DNA from: Bisporella sp. PMI_857
Taxonomy: Eukaryota; Ascomycota; Leotiomycetes; Helotiales; Helotiaceae
Length of the DNA stretch: 64,000 nt
Reading direction: 5' to 3'
Assembly (NCBI GenBank): GCA_021307315.1
Contig: JAJSPD010000014.1
Span: 682,001-746,000, forward strand
Made by a program: the position numbers and the translations under genes. This document shows, in pieces, positions 5,023 to 40,294 of this stretch (positions are counted from its first letter, which is position 1; every line of letters begins with the position of its first letter). A model generated the notes under the pieces. The model was not told the origin of the DNA. It saw nothing but the letters and a program-made list of their open reading frames with translations, and searched no databases.

Positions 5023-5313
5023 GATGCGAGAGCCTTCTTGATATCCATCCCACTGCTCCTCCCATGCTCCGCCGCCCACAGCAAACGTTATATACTAGAC
5101 GGCTTCCAAGCCACCTGCGCCTCTGATGTTCTGACCCTCAACACCGTATTCTAGATTGGGAGCCGGGCGGCGTTGCAGATTGGGCTTGCAGGTATGCAGG
5201 TCGTGTTTCCTGAGACGAGGCCGCTGAAGGCTAAGGGGCTTTGGAGATCGCTGAATGGCATTGCAAATGTGGTACCGGTTCTGAGGATGGCGCGGACGAT
5301 TGGAGAGATGTAG
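5023..5313 (+). pseudogene. relic of a membrane-protein gene, C-terminal part
   Basis: One reading frame can be followed from 5,023 to the stop at 5,311-5,313 and is interrupted only by an in-frame TAG at 5,152-5,154. The sequence around the stop (LNTVF, stop, IGSRAALQIGLAG) reads as one continuous hydrophobic protein and ends in a coherent tail with GLWRSLNGIANVVP. The TAG may replace a Trp codon (TGG to TAG). No start or upstream exons are visible, so this is a fragment. I cannot name the family. Confidence 0.35.
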
Positions 5314-9600: not shown

Positions 9601-10111
9601 CGCTTTTACGAGCTGTCCACTTATATATGGATAATTATAGGTAGATCTACTACTACCGCGTAGATTCTGAGGCACACATGTCACGTGAAATATGAGCGTA
9701 TTAAAGTTCCTACCTCCAATCCTGGATGAGCACATCTTGAAAAATCAGTATTAAAACTTGCAGCCAGCCAGCCAGCCTCATTTCCTTGAAGCTAGCTTGA
9801 TGTTGACATTTCTTAATATTTTGCTTGTATACATCGTTCTAATTGAGAATTCTTGTTCTTGAGGTCTGACTGTATTCAACCACCCCACGTATCAAATTTA
9901 TTTAGGATATGTATCTGCAGTCTGCTTCCACCGACCTCTTTTTAGATTACTACTGTAGCTCTCTGAACCAGTTTCAGGTCCCTTAGGAAAGCCTCATACA
10001 GCAAGCCTTCCTCACATCCAGCATAATATATCGCAATCGCACGACTGAGAAAAGTAGCATAACTAAAGTCTATTTTATTTCTCTGTGACTACTTTGATAT
10101 CCCGAAAAAAG
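6652..10111. other. 3.4-kb gene-poor stretch
   Basis: No frame with a recognisable domain or joinable exons on either strand. Short frames at 8,089-8,328 (minus), 8,334-8,777 (plus) and 9,352-9,552 (minus) look random. A short (CAGC)n run sits near 9,760. The last few hundred bases should hold the promoter of the Zn2Cys6 regulator. Confidence 0.45.
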
Positions 10112-11458
10112 ATGACAGACGCAAACCCCGTCGAACAAGTTGCACCGCCAACACGAAAAGCTACAAGTGGCAAAATCTCCAAGTTAAGAGACAGTTGCCA
10201 TGCCTGTGCATTATCCAAAGTCAAATGTCACAAAGAGAAGCCGTCATGCTCGCGATGTATAAAACGTGGTAGCATTTGTGAGTACTTCGCTACCAAACGC
10301 CCGGGGCGTAAGCGTGATAGCGGTCAAGCCACCAAAAATAATAGTCACGACACGATCAAGTTAGTAGTGCCAGCATATCCAATTAAACGAAATGAAGAGA
10401 ACGAGTGGCCGGGTACCACAAGTACTACTGCGAAAAGCAAATTACAGGCGAGAAATAGCTATCTTACTCCTCCAGGCTTTGTCCCGACCTCCCCCGGAAC
10501 AGGCACTATATCTGAAGCCGAGTTGGACATGTTCATGACGCCTATGGAGTCGAGCCTGGTTTCTGCTCTGGCTGGCATGACCAATGAGTTTGATGACTTT
10601 TTCAGCCCACCTATAGATTTTCCCAAGCTAGAACAGCTAGACCACGAGTTTATTCAAGACCAGAATGACGTTGGAAAGTTACTGATACCTGGTGGGATGG
10701 ATCTCAATCCGGCTTTAGAATCTGCTTCAACTTCGCAGGCAAACGCATCTAGGCCATCATCACCATTCTCAAATTGCCAAACTTTTTCAACCAGTGCTGT
10801 GAGCGTGACCGACATATCAGACTTGAACTGCTCATGTTTGATGCAAACTCTCGATTTCATGAAGAAGCTATCATCTTGCAAGACATCAAGCTGGCCAACG
10901 TCAGATACGGGCCGAAGCAGTAATCCTTCAACGCAAATTGTGATCGCCGAGAATAAGTCAACCATCGAGATTGTGAGCAACATACTGCAATGCTCATGTG
11001 CGGAGGACGGGTATTTGTTGACCATGTTGTCTATGGTCGTCTTCAACATACTAGGGCGGTACGCTACAGCAGTGCACGAAGAGCCCGAGCAAGGCATGAA
11101 GCGATGTGAGAACTTAGGACTGCCAGCGATTGGTGCGCAACTCAACAACTATTATCATGATGGCGAAGATAGCTGGCGAATGACAGCTCAATTGGTTCTT
11201 AACGAGTTGCATCGTGTACAACAGCTTGTGAATCAACTGTCGCCAAGACTTAGGAGACTGGGTTTTGGAGAAGCACGCAAGGGGTCAGGAAGTGGGGCTA
11301 TGAGAAACGAAAGAAGAGATAACTCGAATGCATCACTTTTGAATGGCGAAACAGGGGCGATACATTTTGCAACTACTCTAGACCAAATAGAGGTGGATTT
11401 AAGAAAGTGCTTGAGTAATTTGTCATTGGAAATCATCACAATGCTTCGCGAAAGCTAG
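10112..11458 (+). CDS. AflR-type Zn2Cys6 transcription factor
   Basis: Intronless, 448 residues. The frame opens earlier on a GTG at 10,085, but the first ATG is at 10,112. The zinc binuclear cluster is complete: Cys29, 32, 39, 46, 49 and 56 in C-x2-C-x6-C-x6-C-x2-C-x6-C spacing, followed by the basic linker TKRPGRKR typical of AflR-like regulators. The C-terminal half contains the Cys-rich and leucine-rich segment (for example CSCAEDGYLLTMLSMVVFNIL) of the aflatoxin-regulatory-protein domain. Such proteins activate polyketide clusters by binding palindromic sites in promoters. Neighbouring AflY-like, SDR, MFS and P450 genes fit a pathway-specific regulator. Whether its targets still work is open, as the next gene carries a stop codon. 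Confidence 0.92.
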   Translation: MTDANPVEQVAPPTRKATSGKISKLRDSCHACALSKVKCHKEKPSCSRCIKRGSICEYFATKRPGRKRDSGQATKNNSHDTIKLVVPAYPIKRNEENEWPGTTSTTAKSKLQARNSYLTPPGFVPTSPGTGTISEAELDMFMTPMESSLVSALAGMTNEFDDFFSPPIDFPKLEQLDHEFIQDQNDVGKLLIPGGMDLNPALESASTSQANASRPSSPFSNCQTFSTSAVSVTDISDLNCSCLMQTLDFMKKLSSCKTSSWPTSDTGRSSNPSTQIVIAENKSTIEIVSNILQCSCAEDGYLLTMLSMVVFNILGRYATAVHEEPEQGMKRCENLGLPAIGAQLNNYYHDGEDSWRMTAQLVLNELHRVQQLVNQLSPRLRRLGFGEARKGSGSGAMRNERRDNSNASLLNGETGAIHFATTLDQIEVDLRKCLSNLSLEIITMLRES

Positions 11459-12344
11459 TAGACCTCGAGAGTAGACTCAATAGACAAGATTTTGAATTTT
11501 AGCGAACTGATATATCCCACTTTAACGAGCCGATCGACGCTGTTTCTACAATCTGCTATTCTTTCGAGTAATTAGCCAGGATGTATTTATCCTGACTGAC
11601 CCTCTTTCAATCGCATGCTTAGAACGAGGCTCGATTTTCTTGTTTTTATGCATGTATTGCTCTCCTACTGACCATATAATTTATCAGGAGGAATACTTGC
11701 TTGATGACATTACTTTTGAAAGCCTTTCTATTCTGCAGCTGTTCACGTAAGTGGCAACTTCGTGCTTGCCATAATGTTCAAGCATCCGTCGTGAAGACCT
11801 GCAGTCTAGAGATAACAGACCTTGATAATTTTTCGAATCGCGCTGTTAGTCGATAAAATCATGCGGGCAAAAGAAATTGCCCGACTGTGATCCAAAAGAC
11901 CCGAGACTAACTTCACGAACACCTAAACTAGGTAAACTGCGGGCAGAATATAAACTGCTCAGCTTCTTATGTACTGCATAATCGAAGTTCAAGTTGTCAT
12001 ATCACCGTGTCAAACTGAGTGGCTAGAGCGATGACCGCATCGGAACATATCATGCTACAAAAATCGGGTCGGGGCATATCGTACTAGAAGCTTTTAGATC
12101 GGACCATCGCCTCAAAATTTTCGGAATAGCGGTGCAATTTTCGAGACAATCTGCAACGACAATGTCCGATTATTACAGAATTGCTATGTCATACGATATG
12201 CATTAAGTGCATGATGTTACTGGAGCTTGATCTATACTTAGAGGCCGTTTTCTCAAGGGAAACAATGAGCATTTACCATATTGAATAGCTCGTCTCCGCG
12301 ATTTTACTTGACACTTTACCAAGCATCCACTCCACAAAATAACC
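11459..12344. other. promoter region between the regulator and the AflY-like gene
   Basis: About 0.9 kb without a coding frame. It contains several CG-centred palindromic stretches (for example TCGATCGA-like sequence near 11,530), but I could not assign a specific operator. Confidence 0.4.
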
Positions 12345-13757
12345 ATGGGATCTATAGCAGCATTAAAGGCTTCCCAGATTCATCTGTCCCCTGAGAATCT
12401 AGGCTTAGCTCGGCTCGATCTAAACCCATCAGGATGCCTCGAATTAGCAAACGAACTGCTGCAAAAGAACCATGAAAAGTTTCACATGTATTTTCGAAAT
12501 GTTGCCGGCCATAATCATATCCCACACTCTATTCTCACAGTCCTGGCGATGGGCGGCGGCCCCAAGGAGCTAAACAGAGCATATACGGATGCAGAGGGGC
12601 TCCAACGGCCGTTGCCTCCAGTAGACCCCAAAGTCGTTAAAGATCTGAGTGACCCAGAGAGATTCAAGGCGAGAATGCTTGAGCTGCCTGAGTACCCCAA
12701 CTTTCTGGCGTTCTTCGAGCAGGAAATCGAAGCCAAGGGCTCAAAAGCAGTGACGGAAGAGTATCTTTTCAGCCATACGCCACTGGCTGAGCAAATGCTG
12801 GCACAGCTATATGAAGGTCTTTACCATCCTATAATCCATCTGGGTTTCGCTGTCGAGTTTGACCAGCCTAGTATCATTGCCGAGAGCCTTGCGCAGGCGG
12901 CCTCGCATGATCCAGGACAGATTGATGAATTTTTCCAGCGTAGTGAGCTGTTGGCTCGATCGGGTTCCGTGAAACCTAAGCCCCTGATCGAGTTGTACGC
13001 CGAGGTACGAGCCAACGAGAAGATAAGGGCATCTGCAAAATGACAAGATGGACCTAACCGCGGGAAAATGGTGCTAGCTCGAGGAATAGATGAATTGGTC
13101 GCTGTTGCAGCACAGTTCCAGGTCAAGCCTGAGGATCTCGAGCGTGGTACTGCCGAGATGATGAGTTGTGCAGCGTTCACCGCTGCGGCACAAAAGCCCG
13201 GCAAGGCATTCAAGATCGACTTCTTCTACTTGCACATCGTCACTTGCTCCATCGCTGTAGATGTGCTGCTGCGACAAACTTGGATCAAGATTGAGGACAA
13301 GGTGCGCTTGCTAGAGTGGAAGGGTCGTCTCGACCTCGTGTGGTATGCCGCAAACGGTTCTGCTGAATTGCGTATTCAAGATCTGCTCGAGTATGAACCG
13401 ACCCTTAGTAGTGGCATGGATTGGCGTGCGCTGTACAAAGTTGCAAATAATGTGACTGACGATGGCCATGTTGTGAAGTATATTCGGTCTCTGAAAAATG
13501 CTCAAGATGTTGCGAGGCCATTTGAGCAGGGTGAAGGCGCGTCATATTTTCCTGTTAAGGGTGACTTGTACTTAAAGATCGCCCAGATTTGCTATGATTC
13601 AACGGCGAAGGTCATTGATGAAGATCCGAACACATTATCGAAGAAGTGGGTCTGGGGAGCTGGATATGATATGGCGTGGGGGAACATTCCGGATGTGAAA
13701 TTATGGACAGCGGGAATTGTTTTCAGTAGATTGGAATCAACAGGACTAACAGATTAG
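12345..13757 (+). pseudogene. questin oxidase-like (AflY/MdpL family, DUF4243) gene with one in-frame TGA
   Basis: A single reading frame of 470 sense-plus-stop positions runs from the ATG at 12,345 to the stop at 13,757, interrupted only by TGA at 13,041-13,043 (codon 233). Sequence on both sides fits the questin-oxidase-like Baeyer-Villiger family: the N-terminal HFMYFRN-like and HNHIPHSILT segments, LGFAVEF and LAQAASHD in the middle, then AAQKPGKAFKIDFFYLH downstream. Family members usually have a Trp where the stop lies, so TGG to TGA is the simplest lesion. I tested splicing: no GT/AG pair near the stop restores the frame without losing conserved residues. In related clusters these enzymes open anthraquinone rings. 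Alternatives are a sequencing error or stop readthrough. Confidence 0.8.
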
Positions 13758-14325
13758 GGAAAGCAACATAGGATGTACCAATGTAATGTTGTTCTTCATG
13801 CTCATTCGAATAAGTCCTGTGCGGGCATAATGTGCAACAGATAGGAGACTCTTGAGACTCAACTTTCCCATGATTAATATCTGTATTGGGACCCACTTAG
13901 AGACCCTAAATATCAAGTGAGGTATCGACTTGAAGATATCCAAGGAAGTCCAAAACTATTTAAGACAGGGAGCTTCGTAACCTATTAATCTATTGGATAT
14001 CCGAAAAGGCTGAAATTACATAGATGGGATTTAAACACTATTTATATATTGGCTTGGCAAATCATTAAGCAGCAAATGATGACAGCCGAGAGGGAGGAAA
14101 TCCAGTAAGGTTCGTACAGCGTAGCATTAGGTGGACGGTGGAGTGTGCGCATGTAGAAGGACGACTGTGTTTCTAATATCATTGATTCCTCCCACTTTAC
14201 TTAATATTATTGAGCGAAGGCACTGACATAATTGGCTTATTGTCATATGTTAAGCAACAAAAGCTCTCATATCTGTTCTATATTGGTGACACCGGGTACA
14301 ATTGATAATGCAATACTAAGAACTC

Positions 14326-15321
14326 TTACAGCCCTTCCTTCTTAGTACTCGATTTTGCAGCGTAATCGTTAAAAACCTTTTGTGTAAATTTCCAAACCGC
14401 CTCATCAACATGGCGTTTCCTGAAGTCCCCTAATAGCTGCTCATCACCAGTACTTTCTCCTTCCTTACCGACAAGAAATATACCCCCGCCTGACCTCCTT
14501 AAGACCTCTAATCCCTCAGGAACGGGTACAAGGCCTCCTGGATGAACGGCATACCGATCATTGGTAGCCAGAAATACAGCGTACGCACCAGCAAACTCCT
14601 CGCTTACTGGATTTGGAGGATTAATGCCAAACTTATTAGCTATTGCCAAACCTGGTGTAGCGACAGCACCGGGAAGCCAGTGTGTTATGCTAAGGCGTGG
14701 ATTTTCTCTTGAAATATACTCCAAGGCCAGCGTAGACATGGTGGCCGCATGCACAGATGCGTTCCAGAAATGCCAGTTGGTTGGGTCCTTTAGGTCTAGA
14801 TCGTCCTCCTTGAGCGGTCCTTCCATGCCAGCGGCCAATACTGAGATAATGCGCGGGCTCACAGCAGAATCACTATTGAGCAATGGAAGTAATTGCTCAA
14901 CAGCACGCTGTCTCGAGTAGTATCGTGTGGTCATCGAAGGCTCAAGACCCTCGCTAGTGTCTTTGCGGCCTTCAAAGGCCATGAAACCGGGTGACATGAA
15001 GAGCAGGTCTAGTTTGGTTTCCTTCTGCTTAACAATTTCGACCACTCTATCAACTTCTGCAATGAGGGAAACATCGGCGGCAATGAGACTGTAGGTTCCG
15101 GACGGATTTTCTTGGCGTAAAGAAGCTAAAGTGTTCTCATGGGAGGTGACTGCAGGCTGACGAGCGACGCTATATATTCGCGCAGCCGTGACACTCTGAA
15201 CGAATTGCTTAAGTGCAGCTTGTCCGATCCCTGATGTAGCACCGATAAATAGCGCAACGAGACCTTTTGGAAGTGTGGCTATGCGAGCATTTGAGTATTG
15301 TACTGTTTGAAGGGAGACCAT
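14326..15321 (-). CDS. short-chain dehydrogenase/reductase, fungal divergent type
   Basis: Intronless, 331 residues from the ATG at 15,321 (the frame extends two codons further to a GTG). The nucleotide-binding motif GATSGIGQAA is near residues 27-36, and ADVS and LLFMSPG match later Rossmann-fold strands. At the usual active site the canonical YxxxK is missing: the aligned stretch reads WNASVHAATMSTLALEY, as in a fungal SDR subgroup that also lacks it. The C-terminus keeps the LPGAVATPGL turn found in SDRs. The position beside the AflY-like gene and AflR-like regulator suggests a tailoring reductase, but orphan members of this subgroup are common. Confidence 0.85.
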   Translation of the reverse strand: MVSLQTVQYSNARIATLPKGLVALFIGATSGIGQAALKQFVQSVTAARIYSVARQPAVTSHENTLASLRQENPSGTYSLIAADVSLIAEVDRVVEIVKQKETKLDLLFMSPGFMAFEGRKDTSEGLEPSMTTRYYSRQRAVEQLLPLLNSDSAVSPRIISVLAAGMEGPLKEDDLDLKDPTNWHFWNASVHAATMSTLALEYISRENPRLSITHWLPGAVATPGLAIANKFGINPPNPVSEEFAGAYAVFLATNDRYAVHPGGLVPVPEGLEVLRRSGGGIFLVGKEGESTGDEQLLGDFRKRHVDEAVWKFTQKVFNDYAAKSSTKKEGL

Positions 15322-15328
15322 CTTCACA

Positions 15329-15360
15329 GTCTATGGATATATATGTCTATGGATATATAT
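15329..15360. repeat. 16-bp perfect tandem duplication upstream of the SDR
   Basis: The unit gtctatggatatatat occurs twice in direct tandem, beginning 8 bp upstream of the SDR start codon and therefore inside its 5' leader or core promoter. Confidence 0.85.
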
Positions 15361-15429
15361 GTTGTATTGTAGCTCGTAAGCTTGCCGCTCTCGCACACGT
15401 GGTGGTTGCAGTAATTGAGTGGCTCCTTC

Positions 15430-15500
15430 CCTTGTTATTAATATGTCGGCAACCACTATTATTAATATACCATCACCCCTTATTTCTAATATGTCAGCAC
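15430..15500. repeat. imperfect tandem repeat, about 30-bp unit, three copies
   Basis: Three degenerate copies built around TTATTAATATG/TTCTAATATGTC followed by a C-rich segment. It lies in the AT-rich leader region of the SDR gene. It looks like a minisatellite and not coding sequence. Confidence 0.6.
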
Positions 15501-15866
15501 AGCTTGCCAAAAACAGTCACTTAATTCCTCCAGCCACTAGTGGCTTGTTAATGAAACACGATTACTTTCGATGCACTTTCCTCCTAATAACCTGTTTGAG
15601 CAGGACAAACGATTTATTAAATAATGATTAAATAGATATAAGAATTTACAAATAATAATCAACAAATCCTTCTTTTAAGATGTTCAAATATACAAGTTCT
15701 GACAGGCAGTTAATCCATAGCTAAATTACGTATAAGTGAGAGCATCAGCGATAGTGAATCATGATCATGCACGTCGCACTTCAATCAGGCGCTGCCTTTG
15801 CCTTCTAAATACATCCTTTACCTGCAGAGATTAGCCAACCATAGTTAATTAGTCCAGACCAAGTAA

Positions 15867-16552
15867 TTAAATGGCATTTCCACAAATCAACTGTAATTTG
15901 GAAAAGTTGCTATATGGCAAGGTATCTAGCCATTCCTGACCTTGTTGCATCATGACGAACAGGTAGTTGATGGAGTACAAGATTCTGTCAGCACCTAGGA
16001 GATTGCGATTAAAGTCGAGGAGCGGGGTCCAGAAATTACCCGTCGTCGTCTCGTATATATTTATCTTCCAGTAGTCTGACAATTTGCGTTTCATAGGCAT
16101 GCCTTGAGGTTTTTTCCTTGCGAGCACTATTGTGATGTGTCAGCTCGCTCGTTAGCCCGAAGCTGAGAATACTAATGTACAGGTAGTTTAGCTAAAAAAA
16201 ACTATGAAGAACTCACTTTCATCGAGGCACCAGAAGTCGCTGGGGATACGCTCGCCAAGATGGCCCACAATGACCTTGACAGTCGGAAACCGGCTGCAAG
16301 TGGTCGGCATTGATGTAGGAGGTGCGAGTGACTTACTCAAAAATGCCATTGGCACACAAGCCGACTATGTGGTTCGAAAGTTCAACGGCAAATTGATGAG
16401 GGGCACTAGATAGCTACTTCGCATGGCCTTAGTCTAAAGCAAACTTTTGTGAGATGGCGGGACGAGGATGAAGGTAGATAGGTACTCCAAGTTCCGATAT
16501 TGTCGCCCAGAAGATACAACATGCACTTTCCAAATAAGCTTTTGGCTAATTT
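15867..16552 (-). pseudogene. relic of amidohydrolase-2 decarboxylase (6-MSA / 2,3-dihydroxybenzoate decarboxylase-like)
   Basis: Reading leftward: an ATISELGVPIYLHPRPA segment carries the YLHPR metal-site motif, then an HQFAVELSNHIVGLC segment, a clean intron of about 46 nt (GTAAGT to TTGCAG), RFPTVKVIVGHLGERIP with the GHLGE motif, a second intron at 16,216-16,127 (GTGAGT to ATAG) and a well conserved C-terminus with YETTTGNFWTPLL and LICGNAI. Between the YLHPR and HQFAV segments the same frame has TAA (16,431-16,429) and TAG (16,416-16,414), and the N-terminal third is not recognisable. Relatives remove the carboxyl of 6-methylsalicylate or dihydroxybenzoate. I infer a gene lost recently, since splice sites survive. 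Confidence 0.7.
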
Positions 16553-16719
16553 ATATCCTGTTAACTTCTATTGATCCTAAATTTCCATCATAACGCACCT
16601 AACCATAGACAGGAATACAGAATCTTTTAGTGCCAAGTATTAATCTTGGGGATGATCAGACGAACTACGAGTGTGAAATACTTTGTTATTCTGGATGTCT
16701 CCCACATGACCAGCATCCT

Positions 16720-17802
16720 CACGTGACTGTATGCTGTTTACTTCCTAATATCTTCAAGGCCCAAAGCCTCCACGGCGCTGGGATCGGAAGACTTGTCCAT
16801 TCTCTGTCATATTTCCTCAAGCCCAGCAATAGTAAGACTGATGGCATACACCAAACTACACGGAGTGAGCATGTAAATAAAGATGCAGTAATCATATCTC
16901 TTCTTCCCCTAGGAGTTGGTAATAGCGGGAAACGCTCTTCAATGACAGCTTCGATTGTGGTACTGGTACTTGATGCAAGTTTTCGAGCTGATTGGCAGTA
17001 CCAACACAGAAAGCGTGGAACGTGCCTGGTGATAATTCCATCAAATGGATGGGAATGACACCAAACGCTCCCTGGACAAAATATTGGAGAAATAATGCAT
17101 CTGCAATGACAGATTCTGAAGAGGCCAAGCTGTAGGGATAAGTCAGAACTCCTGCCATCATACAAGCAGTGACGATGCTAAATCGCCGACAAAAAATTGG
17201 GAGTGATAGCCGACAGTACCGCCACCAGCCTTAGCACCGATATTTACAATAGCTTGGGTAATCGTAACATCATTTAAAAAGAAACCAAATTAATTGATCA
17301 AGGGTGTTAGGGAGAGATCTGTGTTCCATGCGGGCTATTTACATTTAGTCATAGTTCGCTTGACTTGGGCACCGCTACTTGCAACAGAGTTGATACTAGC
17401 TATAAGCATGATAAGGCAGGTGAACAGAATCCAATGCTACTTGGTTGCAATCCTAGATTCTGTAAATAAATGTGCTAACTGCTGAGACAGCCAGCCTTCG
17501 AACTTGTTCTCTTTCAGTATAGGCATCCGTCTCAGGAAGAGACATTCTGAATAAGATGGTTGAGGACAGGTGTACAAGCCCCAAACCAAAACAGAGGTGG
17601 CCAGATGTGATATGTTGTGTCTACAAACGCCCCTTAGAATACAGTGGCGAGGGGAAGACCAAAAGAGTAGTTTAATTGAGGCATGCCGGGAATAATACCT
17701 CGAGCTGCGGGAGGACAATCTTCGGGGGAGTAGCAACAACGTTACCATAATAGCCACCCATAACGATGCCGAAGAGTGCACTACAAGCAAGCCTGAGTAC
17801 AA
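16720..17802 (-). pseudogene. relic of an MFS carboxylate transporter (Jen1-like)
   Basis: Two overlapping minus-strand frames give consecutive parts of one transporter: YFVQGAFGVIPIHLMELSPGT and FCVGTANQLENL in one frame, then LASSTSTTIEAVIEERFPL in the next, where intact relatives read straight through. This order matches transmembrane helices near the C-terminus of monocarboxylate/sialic-acid permeases of the Jen1 type. The upstream 17,165-17,802 is further decayed, with only hydrophobic scraps. At least one frameshift near 16,990 is needed to join the pieces. It follows the decarboxylase relic in the same orientation, so the two may have decayed together. Confidence 0.6.
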
Positions 17803-18567
17803 CTGTAGTGCCTCTTATTTAAGTCTTCAAAGGCGTAAACAGATTAAGCGTTTTACCATAGACTGGCCTGAGGGTGCTAACCCAAGTCCGAAAGAATTCA
17901 GCTCTTCTCATTTTGGTGCCTCTTGCATCTGCTGAATACGAGTACATATTGCTGTCCTTTCAGCTTTCAGGTGCCAAGATCCAATGCATAGGCTTTCGGT
18001 GGTTCCCGTCATTTAAGGGCGATGACCTCCGCCAGGTCCATTGTTCACTTCCTGTTTGTTAGGCATCAGGGCACGTGATCGGACAACTAAAAAGTCCGGG
18101 GCATGTCGCAAATACTCTTTCCGGAGTTCTGAAAAGTGCGGATACTGCCTATCCCATTATCTGATATGTAGATACCCGATGTTAAGGGGCGGTATTGTGT
18201 CCAAACCATGGACTTTTTCTTGCTATTACCCGAGATTGGCATGGACTTTTCAGAGTGTTTCGTTCCATGATTTGCAATCACAATTTGGCTTGATCTTGTC
18301 CCGGTTGCTGGTACCTTTGTTATATAGGCCTTTCTCTCTATAATACTCATAGCGTTGAGCCTCTGGTAGTATGTAAGTGCTGCGACGATTCAGCCTCTTT
18401 TACATCCAGCTTCCAAGCGTGAACACAGGTCGGTTTTCTTCCAACGACCCTAAACTCCACTTTCCTAACAATTGCCCAACAGGAAAAACTAAGCAGCCAC
18501 ATCAATTGCTTCTTTGAATTGTCTAGCAAACGTCAATACCTTCAACCTCAGAAAACCCTCCTTAATC

Positions 18568-20369
18568 ATGTCAATACAAACGGAAACTACGCTAAGGCCT
18601 AAGTCAGAAACAGATCATACACCTGACTCAACTAGCAATGGCGAGAAATCAGCTCCAGATAGCTTACAAGAGAAACAAGATGGCATTGCAACAGAGCATG
18701 CTGGCGAAGAACCCGTATATTTGACAGGGTTTCGTCTGTCGATGGTCATGACCACGATTTTCTTGGTTACACTACTTGCGGCATTGGATATTGTTAGTCC
18801 CTGGACACTTACAACGAAGTATTGTTAGCTAACAATTTCTAGGGAATTGTCGCTACTGCAATACCCGGTATCACAGATGACTTTCATAAGCTTGATGATG
18901 TCGGATGGTATGGAAGCGCTTGTTTCCTCCTTGTGGGGGTGTCCTCACCCACTTGGGGCAAGCTATACAAATACTTCGCAGGAAATCTTATTTATCTTGT
19001 CTCTGTCGTTGTATTCTTGGTTGGAAGCATCGTAGCTGCAGCGGCACCAAACAGCGCAGCCTTGATAGTCGGCCGAGCTATTCAGGGGTTTGGATGCTCT
19101 GGTTCCTTGGGTGGCTCTGTACTCATGATCAATTATGTTGCAGAACCCAAAAAACGCCCTATGTTGATTGGACTCTGGATGGGTGTCTTTATGTGTTCCA
19201 CCATTATTGGCCCTCTAATCGGTGGTGCTTTCACGAGCGAGACTACCTGGCGATGGTGCTTTTGGATCAATCTTCCAGTTGGTGGGCCAGTACTCGCCAT
19301 GATTGTGTTTTTCTTCAAGATGCCTAAGCACATCAAGCCTTTTCCTGCTACATGGAAAGAGATCGCATTGCAGCTCGACTTCCCGGGTTTCGCATTGCTA
19401 CTTACTTCACTAATTTGTTTCACTTTGGCTCTACAATGGGGTGGTCAAACAAAACCATGGGACAGCAGTGCTGTCATCGCCACATTGGTAATGTGGATTG
19501 TCTTAACAATCGCCTTTTTTATCACTGAATACTTTTCTGGCGATTATGCCATGGTTCCACTGGCTTTACTAAAACCTCGGATGACATATACGAACGCTTT
19601 GTACGGTTTTATCAACAACCTCGCCAACTTTCAAGTTCTGTTTTATCTCCCAATTTACTTCCAGTCAATCCATGGCCAGTCGGCAATTACTAGCGGTGTT
19701 AACAGCCTTCCATTCATGGCTTTCTTCGCGTTGGGCTCTATTCTTAGCGGTGGCCTCATCATGCAAACACGTTTCCTGCAGCCATTTGAGCTCGGTAGTG
19801 GATTGGTAGTCGTGGCTGGTGGGGCGTTGTTATATACCTTAGAAGTTAACTCCTCAAAAGCACGATACCTTGGCTCTCAAGTTCTTTTCGGAATCGGGAT
19901 TGGCCTTGGTAATCAGATTCCAATGACAGCACTCCAAAGTTTTGCTAAACCCGAAGATGTGCAAACTACCACTGGAATCATGCTCAGTATGTCATAGAGT
20001 TTTCCACAGGCCTTATTGATCTAACTAACCTAATTAGTGTGTAATTCTATTAGCGGTGCCTATTTTGTTACAGCAGCGCAGTCCGTCTTTGCCAATCGCC
20101 TTCTTCATACACTTGCCGAAGATGCTCCGCATATCAATGTAGGAATGGTCCTTGGAACTGGTGCGAGTGAACTTCATAAAGTCTTCACCGGTGCAGATTT
20201 GAGCGCTGTTCTCGATGCTTACATGGTCGGAATCAAAGATGTCTTCGCTTTTGCATTGGCCGGTGCAGCATTTACTGTTGTTATTGCCCTTGCAATTCCC
20301 TTTAAGAGATTAACGGACCAGTCCAAGAAAACTGCTGAGGGGAAGGCAGCAGCTGTCCCCATGGTCTAA
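18568..20369 (+). CDS. MFS multidrug/toxin exporter, DHA-type (14 TM)
   Basis: Three exons: 18,568-18,792, 18,843-19,986 and 20,038-20,369; both introns are about 50 nt with good GT/AG sites (GTTAGT to TCTAG; GTATGT to TTAG). The joined frame gives 566 residues. The start is the ATG before SIQTETTLRPK, as an in-frame upstream open stretch has no ATG closer to consensus. A polar N-terminal tail leads into the first helix, motif DDVGWYGSACFLL follows, then GRAIQGFGCSGSLGG (motif C-like antiporter region), and RPMLIGLWMGVF with a conserved Arg. This is the DHA1/DHA2 class that exports metabolites such as aflatoxin-type products. It fits self-protection or export for the neighbouring cluster. Confidence 0.92.
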
Positions 20370-21721
20370 TCTACTATAAAGAAAATAGAGAGCTTAATAG
20401 GAAGGGGAAGAGCACCAACTGCCAACCAAAGGACATGCTACTAGCAGAAGGAGATTAAGTCAAGCGATGTTCATGCAGGCATATATTCATCATTTTCATG
20501 AACGCGCAACTGTGGCTCGAGCTATAGCAATGGAGATTAGATAAAGGATTCTAGATCGGCCAATTCCTTAGATAGACAATTTGTACTTAATATGTGTGTC
20601 AATAAAGGAGGCTGTGGCGATAAATTCACAAGACCGTTGTGACCTATTATGGTCTTCTTCTAATCATAGATATATCGGCAAATATCTCAATTACCATCGA
20701 AAAGTTGTCATCATTATCGCTATCACGTGTTTCCAGCTCAATAACCTGATCAGATTTTTCAATTTGTATGCCTAACTCTTGATGAGGGCGTAATTTCTTT
20801 TCTTCGTCGGTACTCAGTTCATTTTGTTCGTCTTTATTATCCTTATCTTCAGATTCCGATTGTAGCATTTGTAAGCTTGTTTTCAATGTCTATTTGAAAC
20901 AGGCTGACTTTTAGAGCGACAGCGATTATAGCTCCATTCAAAGCAATTTCCACAGTGTGTTTGATTCCTACATTATTGGCTTTTGCGTACACGCTTTGTT
21001 CGAAGTCGACCAACTGCCTTGCGCAAAATTGGTGGTTTAATTGAATCGTTGTAAGATTTCCGATTAAAGCTGTATGGTAAATTGAAACGGCCACCATTAG
21101 CGTCCCCATTATTTCCTCTTTGAGGTAGTTAAGCGAGATTTATGAGCACGCTTTCCCACTTCAGAATTTTGCTTGCTGTTGTACTAAGCGAAATATGCTA
21201 AACTCGATTTATTTAAAATATTTTCTTTTTCTATATAAACGAATGTCGCTTCAAATTATATATAAATATATAGTAGAATAATTAGATTGGATTAGATTTA
21301 TTAGATTTAAATAAATCAACTTTGATTTTTCTGGGTTGTTATTTAATATAGGTACAGTTCCGTGATTTTTTGGGGGGGGGGGAATATGATGTGTCATCTC
21401 ACTACAACTCCGAATGGCTCGGTACATATCGGGCTCCGGACCGCGCTTTACCAAAAAACAGCATGCACAAATTGGCCGTAGACTTAACAATCAGTTGCAA
21501 CCGGGTTGCGAGTTCTAGTCTCATCCTCCGACAATGTTCTCGGATGATTTTGTCATCTGGATCAGACGCTATGTTTGTCAAAATGAAAGGTTAGACCTGG
21601 TTTATATATACTGATGGTTACGGCGTAAAACCTAAGCTAGAGAACCTCTTGGTCGGTTTCAGGTTCATAAGATTTACAGAGCAGTAGCACCTCTGTCCCA
21701 GAAAACACAGAATAATACATC
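20370..21721. other. AT-rich intergenic stretch with G11 homopolymer
   Basis: About 1.35 kb of AT-rich DNA between the exporter and the P450. Two overlapping minus-strand frames (20,647-20,886 and 20,849-21,109) have no family resemblance and no splice junction between them. A run of 11 G lies at 21,372-21,382. The last 100 bp should hold the P450 promoter. Confidence 0.5.
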
Positions 21722-23479
21722 ATGGCCTTGAACACGCCTTTCACGGTCTCAGTCCTCATTCCGCTTCTACTTCTTATTGTTTACAATACGGCGAAATGGC
21801 TGAACTCAACCAGGCGTCCAAAGAACTTTCCTCCAGGGCCTCCTACTATTCTTGGCCTAGGAAATCTCCACCAGATGCCTCAAACCATGGGCTTTTTAAA
21901 ATATAAAGAATGGGCAAAGGAGTATGGCCCTATTACTGGTCTTAAACTCGGACCAACTAATGCCATCCTCATAAACGATGCATTAGTCTTGTACGAATTG
22001 ATCGTCAAGCGAGGCGCGTCATTTAATGGTCGACCTCAAAGATATGTTGCACAAAAGCACGTGCTACCAGAAGCACAACATGTTCATAGTCTCTATATGC
22101 GCAGTGACTACAGCAAGAGATTTCGTACGGTATCCAAGCCATTCTTCTCAGGTACAGGGCTTGCCAACTTGGCCCCCATGCTGCAAGCTGGAGGGATGCG
22201 TCTGGTCTTTGATTTATTCGAAACAGGGAATGAAAAGATGGCAGATTGTATTGCGCAGTGGTATGAAATTTCCTCTTATACATTGATGCAACCATCCCTC
22301 TAGACTATCAAAGTAATGTCTTTTCATAGGAGTGTCTTAACGCCGGTTGCAATGTTGAGCGGAGCACCAGTCCAGGAGTTCGGGAAAAGCTGGATACACG
22401 ATTACCACGCCTCACAAGTATTGTTCGAGGACCTTTTGGATCCTGGAACTGCGCCACCAGTTGACATATTTCCTATTCTCCGATGGGTGCCTTCCATGTT
22501 TGCCGAATGGAAGCGTAAGGCGCCACTTGCGCGCAAACTCTTGCTGCGTACGTATGGTGTCATGATGGCTCAGGCAAAGAAAGAACGGCGGGGAGATTTT
22601 CAGTCCCTTATTCCAAAATTACTTCGTCAGGCCGAGGATCCGACATTCCCGGAGGATGGCCGATTCTCAGAAAAAGATATTGAATTTATGATGGGCGGTA
22701 TCCTGTATGTATTCCTTTCTGATAAATCCTGTAGTTTCTCTTTCTCCATTTATATAAAAACTTGACTGGACTTTTAAATTAATCTACTTACTACCAATAG
22801 TGATGCTGCCGTAGACTCCTCAGTAGTTTCCGTAAATACTATCCTTCTATCATTAGCAACTCATCCGGAAGCCCAGCGTAAGGCCCAGGCCGAGCTTGAC
22901 AGAGTTTGGGGCGACAAAGCCATTCCAGAGAAGATTGATCTTGAGAGACTACCGTATCTGACAGCTTGTGTGAATGAATCCATCCGGTGGCGTCCTGCAT
23001 CAGCTTTTAACTTGCCTCGTGAGACTGAGCATGATGAGGAAATATTAGGAATGCATATACCAAAAGGCACTATGGTTATTCTCAACCACTGGACCATCAA
23101 TCATGATCCCGAATTTTACGATCAGCCGGAAGAATATAACCCGGACCGCTTCATCAAGGATCCGTTTGGCGCCAAGAAGGGAGTCTCGCAGGTGGGCCGA
23201 AAAGTGGTATATGGGTTCGGCTCAGGTAGGAGAGAGTGTCCTGGCAAAGACTTTGCCTTGTTGAGCATCAGGCTTGCATTTGCACAGGTTCTATGGGCGT
23301 TTGATATCTTGCCAGGCGAGACGCTACACACTGATATCGAAAAAGGCTTCTCGTGTTCTGTGATGCTTAGAACGAAACCATTTAAGCTCAAATTTGTACC
23401 ACGCAGAACGAAGGAGACGTTGGTTGAGGAAGTACGAAAGGCTGATATAAAGCTGAATGAACTTCTTGGACTTGCATAG
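21722..23479 (+). CDS. cytochrome P450 monooxygenase
   Basis: Three exons (21,722-22,260; 22,330-22,704; 22,801-23,479) give 530 residues. An N-terminal membrane anchor precedes the proline hinge KNFPPGPPTILGLGNLHQMP. The I-helix reads GGILDAAVDSS across the second junction, the K-helix ExxR is at 364-367 (ESIR), the PERF-like region is NPDRF, and the haem loop FGSGRRECPG places the ligand Cys at about 451. All key elements are intact. The N-terminal half resembles P450s of the O-methylsterigmatocystin oxidoreductase and m-cresol hydroxylase (patulin) type, which act on small aromatics; this assignment is weaker. It is the last clearly intact gene of the metabolite region. Confidence 0.93.
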
Positions 23480-34249: not shown

Positions 34250-35347
34250 GACTGCGAGTTCAATTGACCCGATATTGAAGCAATTGGAGGAAAGACGAGA
34301 AAATCGAGCATGGTCATCGTGCGGAGAGTTCTACGATAAATATGTGAATATTTTCATAACATGGGTAGCACAGGGACTCAGAAAGGTCAGCCTCGCCCCA
34401 AGTCTTGATCTAGAAGGCGACAAGACATTCCATCGTAGATATGGAAGCTTGTTCGTCGAGTTGACGAGGCACGAGGGGCGGAGAGCGGCGATGGATGGCT
34501 GTTCGGGCGGGCTGGAAAGTATGTTGAGTGGTGCCAAGGCTGTACAGTACATGCAGATAGCCTTACGGCATGGTATGGCCATGTATGATTCGAGGAGATG
34601 CAGGAAACGACTGTCTGGAGGGAAGCGATCGTCGCTGACAAGATTTGGGGACAGCCTTGTCATGCCTTGTCATGCTTACAGTACTGTAACTCTCATGCCT
34701 ATCTCGCCAAGGGGCCGCATCTTGGCGTTACGGAGTCAGCCCATGATAAGAAAGCGGAGGAGAGGGGAATACCCGCCTCCCCATCGTTCAAAGAGTATAT
34801 TTCTCCCTCATTAGTATCAGCCTTCGGAGGAGACAGCCAAAACGGGGCCGCCGCATAGAACGCTATCTGATCCAAACTTGCTGTTGTCAATTACATTAAT
34901 CCTCCGAATGTTTATCTTTGCTATCAGGTTCCACGTGCCTGCCAAGATATGCGATGCACTCCGCTTTCCGACTTGGCAGATACCGACAACCCACGTAAGT
35001 AGAAAAAACTTTGGCATAAAATGAGACTTAAAGATTCCGCCCACAAGTTGGGAAGGTCATAAACATGAGGCTTGAAAACTCTGAACAAGGCTGAGCATGT
35101 GATGGGAACGTCTTTGATCGATATTTCTCTCCAGAGATTACTAAACTGCATGATCATGTTATCTTTGAATCATCAGTTAGCTTTTGCAATTGGAACCAGC
35201 TCTCGAGAGACCTCAAGGCTTCTTCCAAAACTAAAACTCCGAGCGCTTTCCGGTTCATCCCTGTGTCTATATTCCATATGAAGTTTGTTCAGCCACGGCG
35301 GTGAAGTACTCGCTTGATGCATACAGTACCGTCCCTCCCTTCTTCAT
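34250..35347. other. intergenic stretch, no supported gene
   Basis: About 1.1 kb upstream of the 5'-nucleotidase gene and downstream of the P450 relic. A 221-codon plus-strand frame overlaps the nucleotidase 5' end but has no domain and antisense codon structure, so it is not called. Confidence 0.5.
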
Positions 35348-37130
35348 CTATTCTCTCTGCACCGGCATAAACCGTACCTTGAGCTCAGGCTTGATCCGAA
35401 ACCCAAAGTGGCGCGGTGTATGTTCCAAGCTGACCTGCTGCCCTGGCACCTTTTCCACGTCGAGCATTCAAAGAACTTTGGCCAAAAATAGCATCCCTTC
35501 CATCCACGCCAGCTCCTTGCCCAAGCAGTGTCTCGGACCTATGCTGAAGGGATACTGACCCTTGAGGTCATCTTTCGCATATTTCGAATCATAAAGCGGA
35601 TGGCTTGATGCGAGCCAACGTTGCGGCCGCGGACTCCGTCCAAAGGCAAACATGCTTGTTTGCACGTGAGTTTGTCATGACAAACTTAGTGGAAGTGATC
35701 AACCAACTACACGTATAGTAGAAAAAAAATGACATGTAGTCATAAGGAGATGCTCTTACCCCTCCAGGAACATAATGACCATCGACCACCGCACCAGGAT
35801 TGAGACGTGGTAGCCCAGTAGAGTTGCTTGGAAACACTCGGAGTGATTCCTCTAGGCATGCATGCAAGTATTGGAGGGATGCCAAGCTTCCAGAGGTAAT
35901 GTCATTATAGCTCGTGAAAGCATTTCTGATTTCCTCAGTCAGGGGCTTATAAGATTCAACCTCCTCGAGTAGATGAATTAACGTAGCATAGAACCAATCC
36001 GACATGGGACCATATCCCGCAAACATAAGCTGTAACGACACTGAGCCTAGATGAGTGAGCTCCCGTGGGTCTTTTGGGAGTGGGCTATCAGCAGGAACAA
36101 GATACTTGAAGAAATCGGAGTGCTCTAAATCGTTCCTTCCGTCTACACGCTTTTGTATGTTTAAGCGTGTGATCTTCTCTGCTTCAGCGAGAGATTTAAG
36201 TTTGCCGAAATGAACGAAAAGGCACTGGATTGGTTTGATTAAGGGAAGCGCTTGAAGACTTGTATGACGTAGTAAGTACATTGAAACCAAGGACAACTTC
36301 GAGCTGGGTGGAGTTTTCCACTGTAAGATTAAGGCATTAGTCTCTAGATCCCGTAAGGAGTAATCTAAGGAACAGCTTACTGTCTCTCATCTCGTGCATC
36401 TTATCATTCCAGGAGAGATCTGCCGATAAGTCCATGGCCAACCAAGTAGTCCAGTCAACGAGCCCAACACCGTCAGCTGCCTCGCCCAGCTGTCTCATTC
36501 TCTCCACAAAAGTGCTCACATACTGGTGGACGAAAGGATCCATGGCTCCGATTGACCGTTTACTAAATGCCGGAGCAAATTTCTTCGCGACCTTTTGGTG
36601 CCGGACTGGATCTCCCTCCCAAACGAGGCCACCAAGATCTTTTCCGCGATTGTTGAAGTCCGTTTTAAGGAACGCCCCATTACCTCTCTGGTGCGAGGAA
36701 CAAATGTCTCCATTACGCCATGGATTAGGGGCTCCTCTGTATTAGAATTTTCTTAGACCACTCACCAGGTGTAGCCTGTGGCGTTAGAAAGACAAGCTCG
36801 TTGGGTGCAACGCGTACGACATCCCCATACTTGCTGAGGGCATTCTCAATCGCCCATGGATACCGCCCCGAAAGCCTAAATGATGATGAGCGTGTGACGT
36901 CTCTTCCAGAAACTTTTAATATGGATGGATCTACTTGCCAATGATAGCCGTACCAAATATTTGAGAACGCTGCTATTTGCAGGCCCGGAAATTTGGAGAG
37001 GGGATGGAAGTGCAAAATATAGACGCATCTGCTTACTGCATATATAAATATCTAGATCGCAAGTTAGAGCAAGAAAAGACTCGTGAGAAAAGGCACCGAG
37101 CAGTTTGTGTGGTATAGAGAGACCTACCAT
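35348..37130 (-). pseudogene. cytochrome P450 relic (CYP65 / isotrichodermin hydroxylase-like)
   Basis: Segments of one P450 occur in order on the minus strand: membrane anchor (37,130 onward), HPLSKFPG and SGRYPWAIENALSKYGDVVR with a clean intron between, NNRGKDLGGLVWEGDPVRHQ, a DWTTWLAMDLSADL helix, ESLRVFP (ExxR), and FSIGPRHCLGKELAW with the haem Cys. Lesions: a frame change after RLYF in the N-terminus, a frame change near 36,270, an intron acceptor near 35,660 reading CTCAC where an AG is expected, and TGA at 35,470-35,468 between LFLAKVL and MLDVEKV where relatives have Trp. The true end is the TAG at 35,350-35,348. It is oriented like the UstYa gene 0.7 kb away, so may have been part of that locus. 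Confidence 0.75.
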
Positions 37131-37810
37131 AGTACGAGTGATAGTCACTATATCCTCGTTTGTCACCTCGTCGAAGGCGACAATGGAACGGAAAGCTACC
37201 ATTTTCTCATCCAAGGAGTAAGATACTTTTTTCTTCTCCGCTTCAGTAATTGTAGAGCTTGGAGCCTGATAATCTTCTGACATTCCAGCAGAGCCAAGGT
37301 ATCCCATACAATAAGCTGTTGGGCTGCGCCGTAATCAGCGCTTGTTTGAAACATGCTGTTAGAAATGCATGGCGGCAACCTTAGGTGAATCCAGCTCGGC
37401 AGTCCTGGTGGCAACTGATTGGATGGAGCGTCTAAAGTTGTGGCCTGTGATCTTTCGGGATATGGCCCCAGAAGGTGACAAGATGTGCTTAAGAAAAGGG
37501 TCATGGCCCAGCCTCCAGCTCAGGTATGTCCTGGCCACATTCTACTCTCCTCGGGAATGACCCCGCTAACACTAAGTGCAATAAAAATGGTAAGCAAAGC
37601 GAATGTGTTTCTTGTAAACATCGTTCTAATTCTTTATTCTTGGTAATATCCTACCTTGAAAGACCGGAACTAGATACAGTCCAGCTAAGAAACCAGACAG
37701 AATACTAAAATGAAACACTACAGTACTGGTGCCTAATGGTTGATCAGTCGAAGGACCATACGACACTGTGCCTCTTATGTTCTACGTATATTAATTATTT
37801 TATTTCTTTT
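37131..37810. other. intergenic stretch with unassigned coding-like sequence
   Basis: About 0.7 kb. A minus-strand frame at 37,131-37,307 (SLDEKMVAFRSIVAFDEVTN) looks coding-like, but I could not place it in a family or splice it to the P450 relic. Confidence 0.35.
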
Positions 37811-38873
37811 CTAGCTATCTTTTACCCATGATGCATTACGACCTGGGTTTTTTGCGTTCCAGTGCCTAACGGCGCTTTCTCCAAAGTGTTCAGCAAAGCC
37901 GTAAATTGGCGGGCCTTGCACCACGTTTGGTGGCCTTGTGTTGTTGTAGATATGCGAGTACTTATCCATATCGATCGACTTCTCCTTCCGAAACTCGGTC
38001 AACTTGTCAAAATTGATACACTTCCGGTTGATAGACCTGATTAATATATCGTAAGCCAAACCCGTTTAGCATGCCAAACAAACATCACTCACATCTCAGG
38101 GAATGGCCGTAACTGCGTCTGTCGCCATGTCAAAGGAATCAGATTCACATTACCACTGCACTGTATTCCTTGCAGTAGTATGTCGATACAGTGATTGACG
38201 TGGATCTCTCTCAACGTCTCGTGAGTCGCATCTGGTATAGGCGAACTGTAGTAGTCCGCGTAGGCTATTCTCCGTAACGCATTTATACAGTGTAGTTGGT
38301 GGTAGACATCGAAAATCGCGGCATATGCATCGTCACCAAGGCCCCAAATATCATCCTCTAGTTTGACGGCTATTTCGACATCTGCTCCCATTTTTCTCAG
38401 ATCATTCGCCGTTACTGGAATGACCCTGGTGAGCTCATACTCAGCCCAGATCGCATCTGATGCATTGTTCGGCATCTTTCGCGCGATGGAACCATCAGGG
38501 TGTGGGAAAAGAGTGCCATTGATTTTCTCAACTTTGAGCTCGAGATCCACCATGTCAATGATGGGGCCTGATTGAACATATCAGCTTTCTCATTCATCTT
38601 AAGTGTATGTCTTGGGACAGGCGCACTATAACTTGTCACACGACGCAAGTCAGGGTTGATGAGGAAGTATTGATGGTAGAGCCAGGTGCCAAAAAGAGCG
38701 ACACTGGTGATGAATAAGGTAATATTAGAGAATATGATGAACAACGCCCATGGCTGCTTTAAGGGCGAAAGTTTTGGCTCCTGGTATCGTATTGATCTCT
38801 TTTCTTGTAAAAATCCTCGGGTCTCATCATCCTCGAGATCTGAAGAGCGCCCGTTTGAATCCGGCGATCGCAT
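37811..38873 (-). CDS. UstYa-family oxidase (DUF3328), RiPP tailoring enzyme candidate
   Basis: Three exons (38,873-38,627; 38,567-38,093; 38,036-37,811) give 315 residues. A cytosolic N-terminus is followed by one membrane helix (about 42-64), then the lumenal UstYa domain. Both hallmark HxxHC motifs are intact: HQLHC at 172-176 and HVNHC at 205-209. The sequence GDDAYAAIFDVYHQLHC and the tail SINRKCINFDKLTEFRKEKSI are typical of the family. Intron 1 (59 nt) uses a weak donor GTGCGC; it was chosen because it restores the frame and gives the usual SPIIDMVD start of the domain. Intron 2 (55 nt) has GTGAGT. Family members oxidatively cyclise ribosomal peptides (ustiloxin, phomopsin, asperipin) in the secretory pathway. 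The peptide precursor gene lies divergently 0.97 kb away. Confidence 0.9.
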
Positions 38874-39842
38874 TTCAACACTTTTTTTTCATTTATCGTG
38901 GTTTTTCTAGGCAATATTCCGCATCTCAAGGCATAGATGAGCGAGAAACCTTCAAGATGTCGAAATTTATCTGGTAGAAAAGTGAAAGAGATGGTTAAAT
39001 ATTTGCTAACTCTGACAAAGGTCATCTAAACCTGGTCAATATCATTGTATCATGTGGCGCCAAGATCCTGATATGGAAGCTGGACAAAATAAGTTAAGCG
39101 AGGAATCATATTATCGAGCCTACTTTGTACGCCGCAATCGTGCTTTAAGCCGGATTTTTATAATGCAGCAAGTGGCCGTGAGGCACTCCTAGCAGTGCGA
39201 GTACGCCGCAGTCGTGCTTTAAACAGGGCGATGTCACTGTTTGTCGCCAACTTTATTCACGAGTATGTAGAACCTTCTTTAAGAGGAAGGGTTGCTAATG
39301 CCGGTGCATAATCATCTTGAAGCTCCTCGCTCCTTCGAGTACATTTCTACAAGGGAATCTAGCTAAAGACCAAGCTAGGGTATTAAAGGGCTGCAACGGG
39401 GGAAGTATAGCGCGGCCAGCAATAGTCGCTTACTGCGGCCTCGTACTTAAAACGCTAATCCCTTGTTTCAATAGCTATCTAGCATTTGCTGTTCTGATCG
39501 GTGCCTTGTTTCGGCGATCGTGTCCCATCATATTTACAGCCAATCGGAGTTCAAAACAAGGTGATCACAGATCTACTCAACCGTTAGAAAGATCACAATA
39601 TACGCCATACTCGTTTGACCTGCCTGATTCGACACCGCCCCTCAACGAGGACATAGCGTGTGTGCAAAAGCCATTTCAATACCACTACGGAGGACTGACG
39701 GCGAGAATAGAGTGGGTGGGGTTAAGTAGCCTCCAAGTACAAATACAGCCATCAGTTTGCGTTAGGCTCTCTCAGTTCTCAAGAAAATTCTTCGTTCATT
39801 TACTAAAGCTATTAATCACTGAGCCTGAAATCACTGCGCAAT
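38874..39842. promoter_or_regulatory. bidirectional promoter region of the UstYa gene and the peptide precursor
   Basis: A 969-bp region between two divergent start codons. It carries a 22-bp imperfect direct repeat (see separate entry). A 206-codon open frame over the right half ends out of frame with the precursor and shows no domain, so I treat it as chance. Confidence 0.55.
39127..39222. repeat. 22-bp direct repeat pair in the divergent promoter
   Basis: gtacgccgcaatcgtgcttt (plus two A) at 39,127-39,148 recurs at 39,201-39,222 with a single A-to-G change, start-to-start distance 74 bp. Both copies are in the same orientation. A pair of long, nearly identical sites in a divergent promoter is a reasonable candidate for co-regulation of the two genes. 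Confidence 0.65.
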
Positions 39843-40294
39843 ATGCTTTCCACCTCAAAGCTTGTTCTGGCCGCTCTAGCCTTGTTCATCTCGCAGGCTG
39901 TTGCTGCTCCTATGAACGTTCGTTGGCCCGGCCGTAACCTAACTTGATACTGAATAACATTTGCCTTCAGGTCAAGCGAGATGTAGAGACCACCGCTGAA
40001 GCGACGTACCTTGATCCTGAAAATGGTCTTTACCCTCTTTCAGCTTTGATCATCAAGAAGAACGAGAATGGCGATCTCTATGTTGCAAAGCGTGAAGAAG
40101 ATGCTCCGCTTGATGCCACCTATGTTGACGCTGAAAATGGCCTCTACCCTCTCAGGGCCTTGATCATCAAGAAGGATGAGAACGGAAATCTATATATCGC
40201 GAAGCGCGAGGAAGATGCACCTGTTGAAGCGGCATATCTGAACCCTGAGCTTGGCTTGTATCCTACCTCAGCCCTCATCATTAAGAAGGAGTAA
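39843..40294 (+). CDS. secreted repeat-containing RiPP precursor (dikaritin / Kex2-processed type)
   Basis: Two exons, 39,843-39,917 and 39,971-40,294, with a 53-nt intron (GTTCGT to TTCAG), give 132 residues. Residues 1 to about 22 are a clear signal peptide ending AVAA. After VKR (residues 26-28) come two 38-residue repeats (29-66, 67-104), each ending in a Kex2-type Lys-Arg, and a 28-residue third copy that lacks the KR end. Each repeat contains an invariant GLYP-x-x-ALIIKK block; flanks vary (ATYLDPEN, ATYVDAEN, AAYLNPEL). Short acidic segments EEDAP follow the KR sites. Signal peptide, KR-punctuated near-identical repeats and a divergent UstYa gene are the three hallmarks of fungal dikaritin precursors. 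The core peptide is inferred, not proved. Confidence 0.85.
39980..40291 (+). repeat. in-frame 114-bp tandem repeats of the precursor
   Basis: Units 39,980-40,093, 40,094-40,207 and a shortened 40,208-40,291. The repeat period is exactly 38 codons. Differences between units are mostly outside the GLYP/ALIIKK block, so the block seems to be under stronger constraint than its flanks. Confidence 0.85.

Follow-up and report, generated by a model that had tools for sequence, protein, structure and literature searches.

A UstYa-family (DUF3328) oxidase gene and a gene for a small repeat protein lie head to head in the stretch of Bisporella sp. PMI_857 DNA analyzed here (64,000 nucleotides, hereafter the window). 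The oxidase gene (37811..38873, minus strand) is composed of exons 38873-38627, 38567-38093, and 38036-37811, stop codon included, separated by introns 38626-38568 and 38092-38037. The spliced model encodes 315 amino acids and corresponds to the annotated Bisporella sp. PMI_857 protein P0002, with 100% identity over a 193-residue query and an identical reading along the 315 residues. The first-pass annotation had proposed a UstYa-family gene that diverges from the precursor and carries both HxxHC motifs. This is confirmed by a PF11807 match (151.7 bits, E 3.6e-44) and by two intact motifs at residues 172 and 205. In an alignment of 30 UstYa homologues, P0002 included, H172, H175, C176, H208, and C209 are invariant, and H205 is nearly so. 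The protein has a single hydrophobic stretch at residues 43-61. In the predicted structure (mean pLDDT 81), the two motifs sit on helices 169-184 and 201-219, and no clear match to this model was found among solved structures. A search for relatives returned 152 at E <= 1e-8 from 270 candidates. Among the matches listed are proteins from Xylariales, Cytospora, Pestalotiopsis, Apiospora, Hypoxylon, Ascochyta, and Trichoderma; the one from Xylariales sp. PMI_506 is at 66%.

The repeat precursor gene (39843..40294, plus strand) is composed of exons 39843-39917 and 39971-40294 with an intron at 39918-39970; the model rests on splicing, a repeat test, and a relative, P0001. Together, the two genes account for the interval 37811..40294 given by the first-pass annotation, an interval bounded by their two stop codons. 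The 132-amino acid product has a hydrophobic N-terminus, a KR site, and then units of 38, 38, and 28 amino acids. Exon 1 (39843..39917) encodes the signal-peptide-like N-terminus, MLSTSKLVLAALALFISQAVAAPMN, a putative signal peptide by hydropathy only (best 13-residue mean of 2.31). Unit 1 (residues 29-66; 39980..40093) and unit 2 (residues 67-104; 40094..40207) close with KR, and unit 3 (residues 105-132; 40208..40291) is truncated and stops at KKE. The dibasic sites KR27, KK54, KR65, KK92, KR103, and KK130 are in register. Their positions and the spliced model uphold the earlier description of two 38-residue, KR-ended repeats and a truncated third copy. An ATY...ALII block is present three times, bounded by KR or KK, and counting KR alone leaves two complete units. 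Kex2-processed repeat proteins are defined in the text of PMC7329392 by a signal peptide and at least three tandem repeats of at least 8 amino acids between KR, KK, RK, or RR; the precursor has three such repeats when both KR and KK are used.

The repeat is exceptional in the window. Among 830 open reading frames (ORFs) of at least 40 amino acids, the precursor is the sole case of an in-register dibasic tandem repeat at an identity of at least 0.42, and its own repeat identity is 0.79. The rest of the window, which served as the UstYa-free comparison, contains no other in-register dibasic repeat ORF. In 16,600 shuffled window ORFs, repeat identity stayed below 0.5 (maximum 0.45), and the highest value in 2,000 shuffles of the precursor was 0.32. 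The precursor repeats are under purifying selection. The 21-amino acid block that all three units share gives pS values of 0.60-0.79 and pN values of 0.10-0.27, and copies 1 and 2 compared over 35 amino acids give a pS of 0.76 and a pN of 0.10. Because pS is well above pN between copies, the translated repeat is maintained by selection.

The start codons of the minus-strand UstYa gene and the plus-strand precursor gene are separated by a 969 bp divergent promoter region (38874..39842). Dikaritin-type loci are usually built this way, with a UstYa gene diverging from a Kex2-type repeat precursor. A repeat scan of this region revealed a 27-bp direct repeat on the plus strand (39127..39153 and 39201..39227), the second copy being 89% identical to the first. 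Across the 55.6 Mb genome, the 22-bp core of this repeat (with R standing for A/G) has only two exact occurrences, namely in the copies that begin at 39127 and 39201; the other five divergent UstYa/precursor regions of the genome lack it. The repeat could be a local regulatory element.

A single relative of the precursor, P0001, was found. This 126-amino acid protein, encoded on a 983-base contig without known neighbors, was the only match at E <= 1 among 188 candidates in a single-sequence search of ~5.8 billion proteins. A two-row profile search gave nothing beyond P0001 at E <= 10 among 2525 candidates, and a search of the Bisporella sp. PMI_857 genome itself gave no second precursor copy. 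The three units of P0001 read PLYVD[AP]ENGLYPLRAL[AI][VI]K[EA]KR, and none of 1000 shuffles of a P0001 unit aligned to the window unit equally well. P0001 retains YVD-ENGLYPLRAL and does not have the [ND]ENG[DN]LY[VI]A segment of the window precursor. The GLYP block is present in all six units of the two proteins, and the short segment is absent from the three P0001 units and from unit 3 of the window precursor. Since the block is retained where the short segment is missing, the Y...GLYPxxALII block is the better core candidate. The candidate cores, each part of the block kept in P0001, are YLDPENGLYPLSALII (40007..40054), YVDAENGLYPLRALII (40121..40168), and YLNPELGLYPTSALII (40235..40282), all on the plus strand; their calculated linear [M+H]+ values are 1790.9575, 1819.9953, and 1776.9782, and each ring would lower them by 2.0157. 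On this sequence evidence, the better candidate is a core of ~16 amino acids that contains two tyrosines but lacks a YXIX motif. The precursor tyrosines are followed by LDP, VDA, LNP, PLS, PLR, PTS, VAK, and IAK, none of which fits the YXIX pattern.

The same two genes could also make up a RiPP unit in which the core is the short peptide that precedes KR, NENGDLYVA (40061..40087) or DENGNLYIA (40175..40201), both on the plus strand, or only LYVA/LYIA, with the GLYP block acting as a spacer or recognition sequence. The cores of ustiloxin, phomopsin, and asperipin are 4-6 amino acids long, with ED and KR flanking those of UstA, as described in the text of PMC6514808. In the window precursor, KR likewise comes after the short segment and EED comes after KR. 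The segment is also conserved between units 1 and 2, with 3 non-synonymous and 8 synonymous differences. Calculated linear [M+H]+ values are 994.4476 for NENGDLYVA and 1008.4633 for DENGNLYIA. However, its absence from P0001 and from unit 3, set against the GLYP block in all six units, makes this arrangement unlikely, and the two short peptides are possibly a second product of the precursor. The proposal of the first-pass annotation that GLYP-x-x-ALIIK is the core thus holds insofar as P0001 keeps this block and lacks the other segment, and is qualified by the second possible core before each KR. Taking the GLYP block as the core, it may be, tentatively, that UstYa acts on a ~16-residue, two-tyrosine core without Y-x-I and that each unit holds two potential products split by KK and KR, so that a long cross-linked peptide and a short companion peptide would come from one locus.

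The Bisporella sp. PMI_857 genome encodes many UstYa proteins. A search of the genome gave at least 75 matches, which were grouped into about 52 genes at 40 loci. The flanks of 36 of the 40 loci were covered, at 0.49-1.00 of 3 kb per side; the other four are C137, C230 near 999 kb, C269, and C40. With a threshold of 0.6 for repeat identity and a period of 12 or more, a Kex2-type repeat ORF was found at 7 of the 40 loci, the window included, and no repeat precursor was recognized at the other 33 (4 of which lie outside the DNA covered). The six further precursors beside UstYa genes are located at L034 1-486, L035 1896-2264, L043 6030-6431, L053 2793-3200, L056 5-532, and L058 31-306. Their units are APSWYYDKKR, VPDWNYYGSESSTSKR, AETSADESYLPNKR, LATYALSDGELEKR, GEAVYDNPKTATLPYAPNSLEAKR, and a 39-amino acid unit ending in LSLLDLTYIDKR, all of them different. 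At 6 of the 7 loci, the precursor and the nearest UstYa gene are divergent, with 1.0-1.5 kb between the matches; at the seventh, C68, the genes are convergent and 3.3 kb apart. Weaker or low-complexity repeat ORFs were left out of the seven, namely L026 (identity 0.50), L052 (0.50), L047 (0.43), L054 (0.60, with a period of 10 and runs of K and R), L063 (0.55, with a period of 11 and YKRDA twice), and L068 (0.54). The last of these is a long ORF (4328-5266, plus strand) that adjoins a UstYa gene and has weak repeats of period 26 and several KR sites. Of these ORFs, L063 and L068 may be genuine precursors.

Within the genome, P0035 at C216 is the UstYa paralogue closest to the window protein (56% identity across the 193-residue query, 46% across the whole alignment), and it too has a divergent precursor. 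By eye, the repeats of this precursor look like those of the window precursor, but an equally good alignment was obtained for 92 of 1000 shuffles, and a genome search with the C216 precursor returned only itself. The lowest shuffle counts among the six other-locus precursors compared were 26 of 1000 (L056) and 52 of 1000 (L034), which is unremarkable for six tries. Given these shuffle tests and the self-only search, homology between precursors within the genome was dropped. The next-closest UstYa gene, C1 (1127 kb), has no divergent related precursor within ~0.9 kb upstream.

A further explanation is that the repeat protein is a source of secreted linear peptides resembling pheromones or effectors and that the proximity of UstYa is incidental. 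In the text of Umemura 2020 (PMC7329392), 7878 Kex2-processed repeat proteins are reported, of which 1758 have DUF3328 within the nearest 15 genes and most (6120) have no DUF3328 neighbor. According to the same text, DUF3328 around these precursors is most often the next gene, tyrosine is enriched in their repeats, and a DUF3328 neighbor is almost never found for pheromone-type repeat proteins. The window precursor matches no Pfam pheromone family; its single match is the unrelated Ned1_M, which falls below the cut-off (15.5 against 27 bits). With the divergent pair recurring in 6 of the 7 precursor loci as well, linear peptides are a distinctly unlikely outcome of this locus.

The surroundings of the pair were also considered. 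Pieces of a cytochrome P450 gene lie at 35100-37300 on the minus strand; judged by eye, their frames meet a stop shortly past the heme motif, and the stretch ahead of this motif looks short, which suggests that the P450 gene may be decaying. That the pair belongs to a larger, now decaying cluster that once included this P450 gene is very improbable, for though UstYa and the downstream pieces share a strand, the P450 frames run into that early stop and the remaining flanking genes (5'-nucleotidase and DUF3632) are atypical of such clusters. Elsewhere in the window, 10067-23476 encodes an AflR-type regulator, a questin oxidase-like protein, a short-chain dehydrogenase, an MFS transporter, and a P450, and is probably a separate secondary-metabolite cluster. 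The questin oxidase-like gene (12312-13757, plus strand) is composed of two adjacent ORFs in the same frame divided by a stop, where the profile skips 13 positions, pointing to an intron or an interrupted gene.

Several known systems resemble the pair. With the Umemura 2020 class, it shares a putatively secreted precursor, at least three repeats between KR and KK, tyrosine in the repeats, and an adjoining DUF3328 gene; its sequence type was not matched to the types given in the text of that paper (PMC7329392). As described in PMC6514808, the asperipin-2a locus (aprA/aprY) is likewise a small locus with one UstYa homologue and a repeat precursor whose cores have internal tyrosines. The asperipin-2a core is FYYTGY in repeats of ~8 amino acids, whereas the window units are 38 amino acids long, and no transporter or reductase gene was recognized beside the window pair. 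The ustiloxin and phomopsin loci also combine a precursor with KR-site repeats and UstYa-type enzymes, but their units are 13-14 amino acids long, and the window locus has no Y-x-I core and no tyrosinase that was found (texts of PMC6514808 and PMC9233826). No tyrosinase match was obtained among 30 Pfam-scanned sequences, a set that directly includes 25 of the 32 window ORFs with 160 or more amino acids and few shorter exons. The epichloecyclin precursor GigA is a secreted precursor with few imperfect KR-site repeats, and, by the description in PMC6514808 and PMC9233826, its nonapeptide cores with an N-terminal Ile and an internal Tyr set it apart from the window precursor. UstYa proteins are also active in non-RiPP clusters, as stated in the text of PMC12048977. 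Neither GLYP nor DUF3328 occurs in the available text of a Trichoderma paper (PMC7099791). A text search of a collection of open-licence papers gave no published match to the repeat pieces. The core sequence was thus not found described in the literature searched, the repeat is longer than characterized examples, and each unit has two possible products. Many gene pairs of this kind have been recorded before, but the peptide sequence seems to be new.

Taken together, the two genes probably form a minimal fungal RiPP unit, dikaritin-like in combining UstYa with a repeat precursor. Because the pair is confirmed and its layout recurs in 6 of the 7 precursor loci, the RiPP reading has good support as far as the kind of locus is concerned. 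The minimal dikaritin-type unit put forward by the first-pass annotation is partly supported, by its usual divergent anatomy and by this recurrence. It does not fit in the narrow ustiloxin/phomopsin sense, as there is no Y-x-I and no tyrosinase in the scanned ORFs.

UstYa-type oxidases close repeat-derived peptides into rings. If the pair works like the ustiloxin, phomopsin, and asperipin systems (PMC6514808 and PMC9233826), the precursor would enter the secretory pathway, where a Kex2-type protease would cleave it in the Golgi after KR and probably KK. A carboxypeptidase would then remove the basic ends of the released peptides. The membrane-anchored UstYa oxidase would subsequently oxidize the peptide through a tyrosine side chain and cross-link it, most likely at a tyrosine of Y-[LV]-[DN]-[PA]-E-x-G-L-Y-P-x-x-A-L-I-I. 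The outcome would be an oxidized, probably macrocyclic, secreted peptide. We infer signal peptide use, Kex2 cutting, the choice of core, oxidation, cyclization, secretion, and co-regulation of the pair. With two tyrosines per block and no Y-x-I, a ustiloxin-like ring is not predicted; use of internal tyrosines, as in asperipin, would fit better, and the cross-link is not assignable from sequence. As a guess, the product might have a signaling or antagonistic role.

UstYa oxidases form unusual cross-links, and to our knowledge, only a small number of the resulting products have been described. With just two genes and a long, conserved candidate core that contains two tyrosines, this locus offers a simple test of the reach of UstYa beyond short Tyr-Ile motifs. 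The recurrent divergent layout, seen in 6 of the 7 precursor loci, is a handle for finding unannotated precursors.
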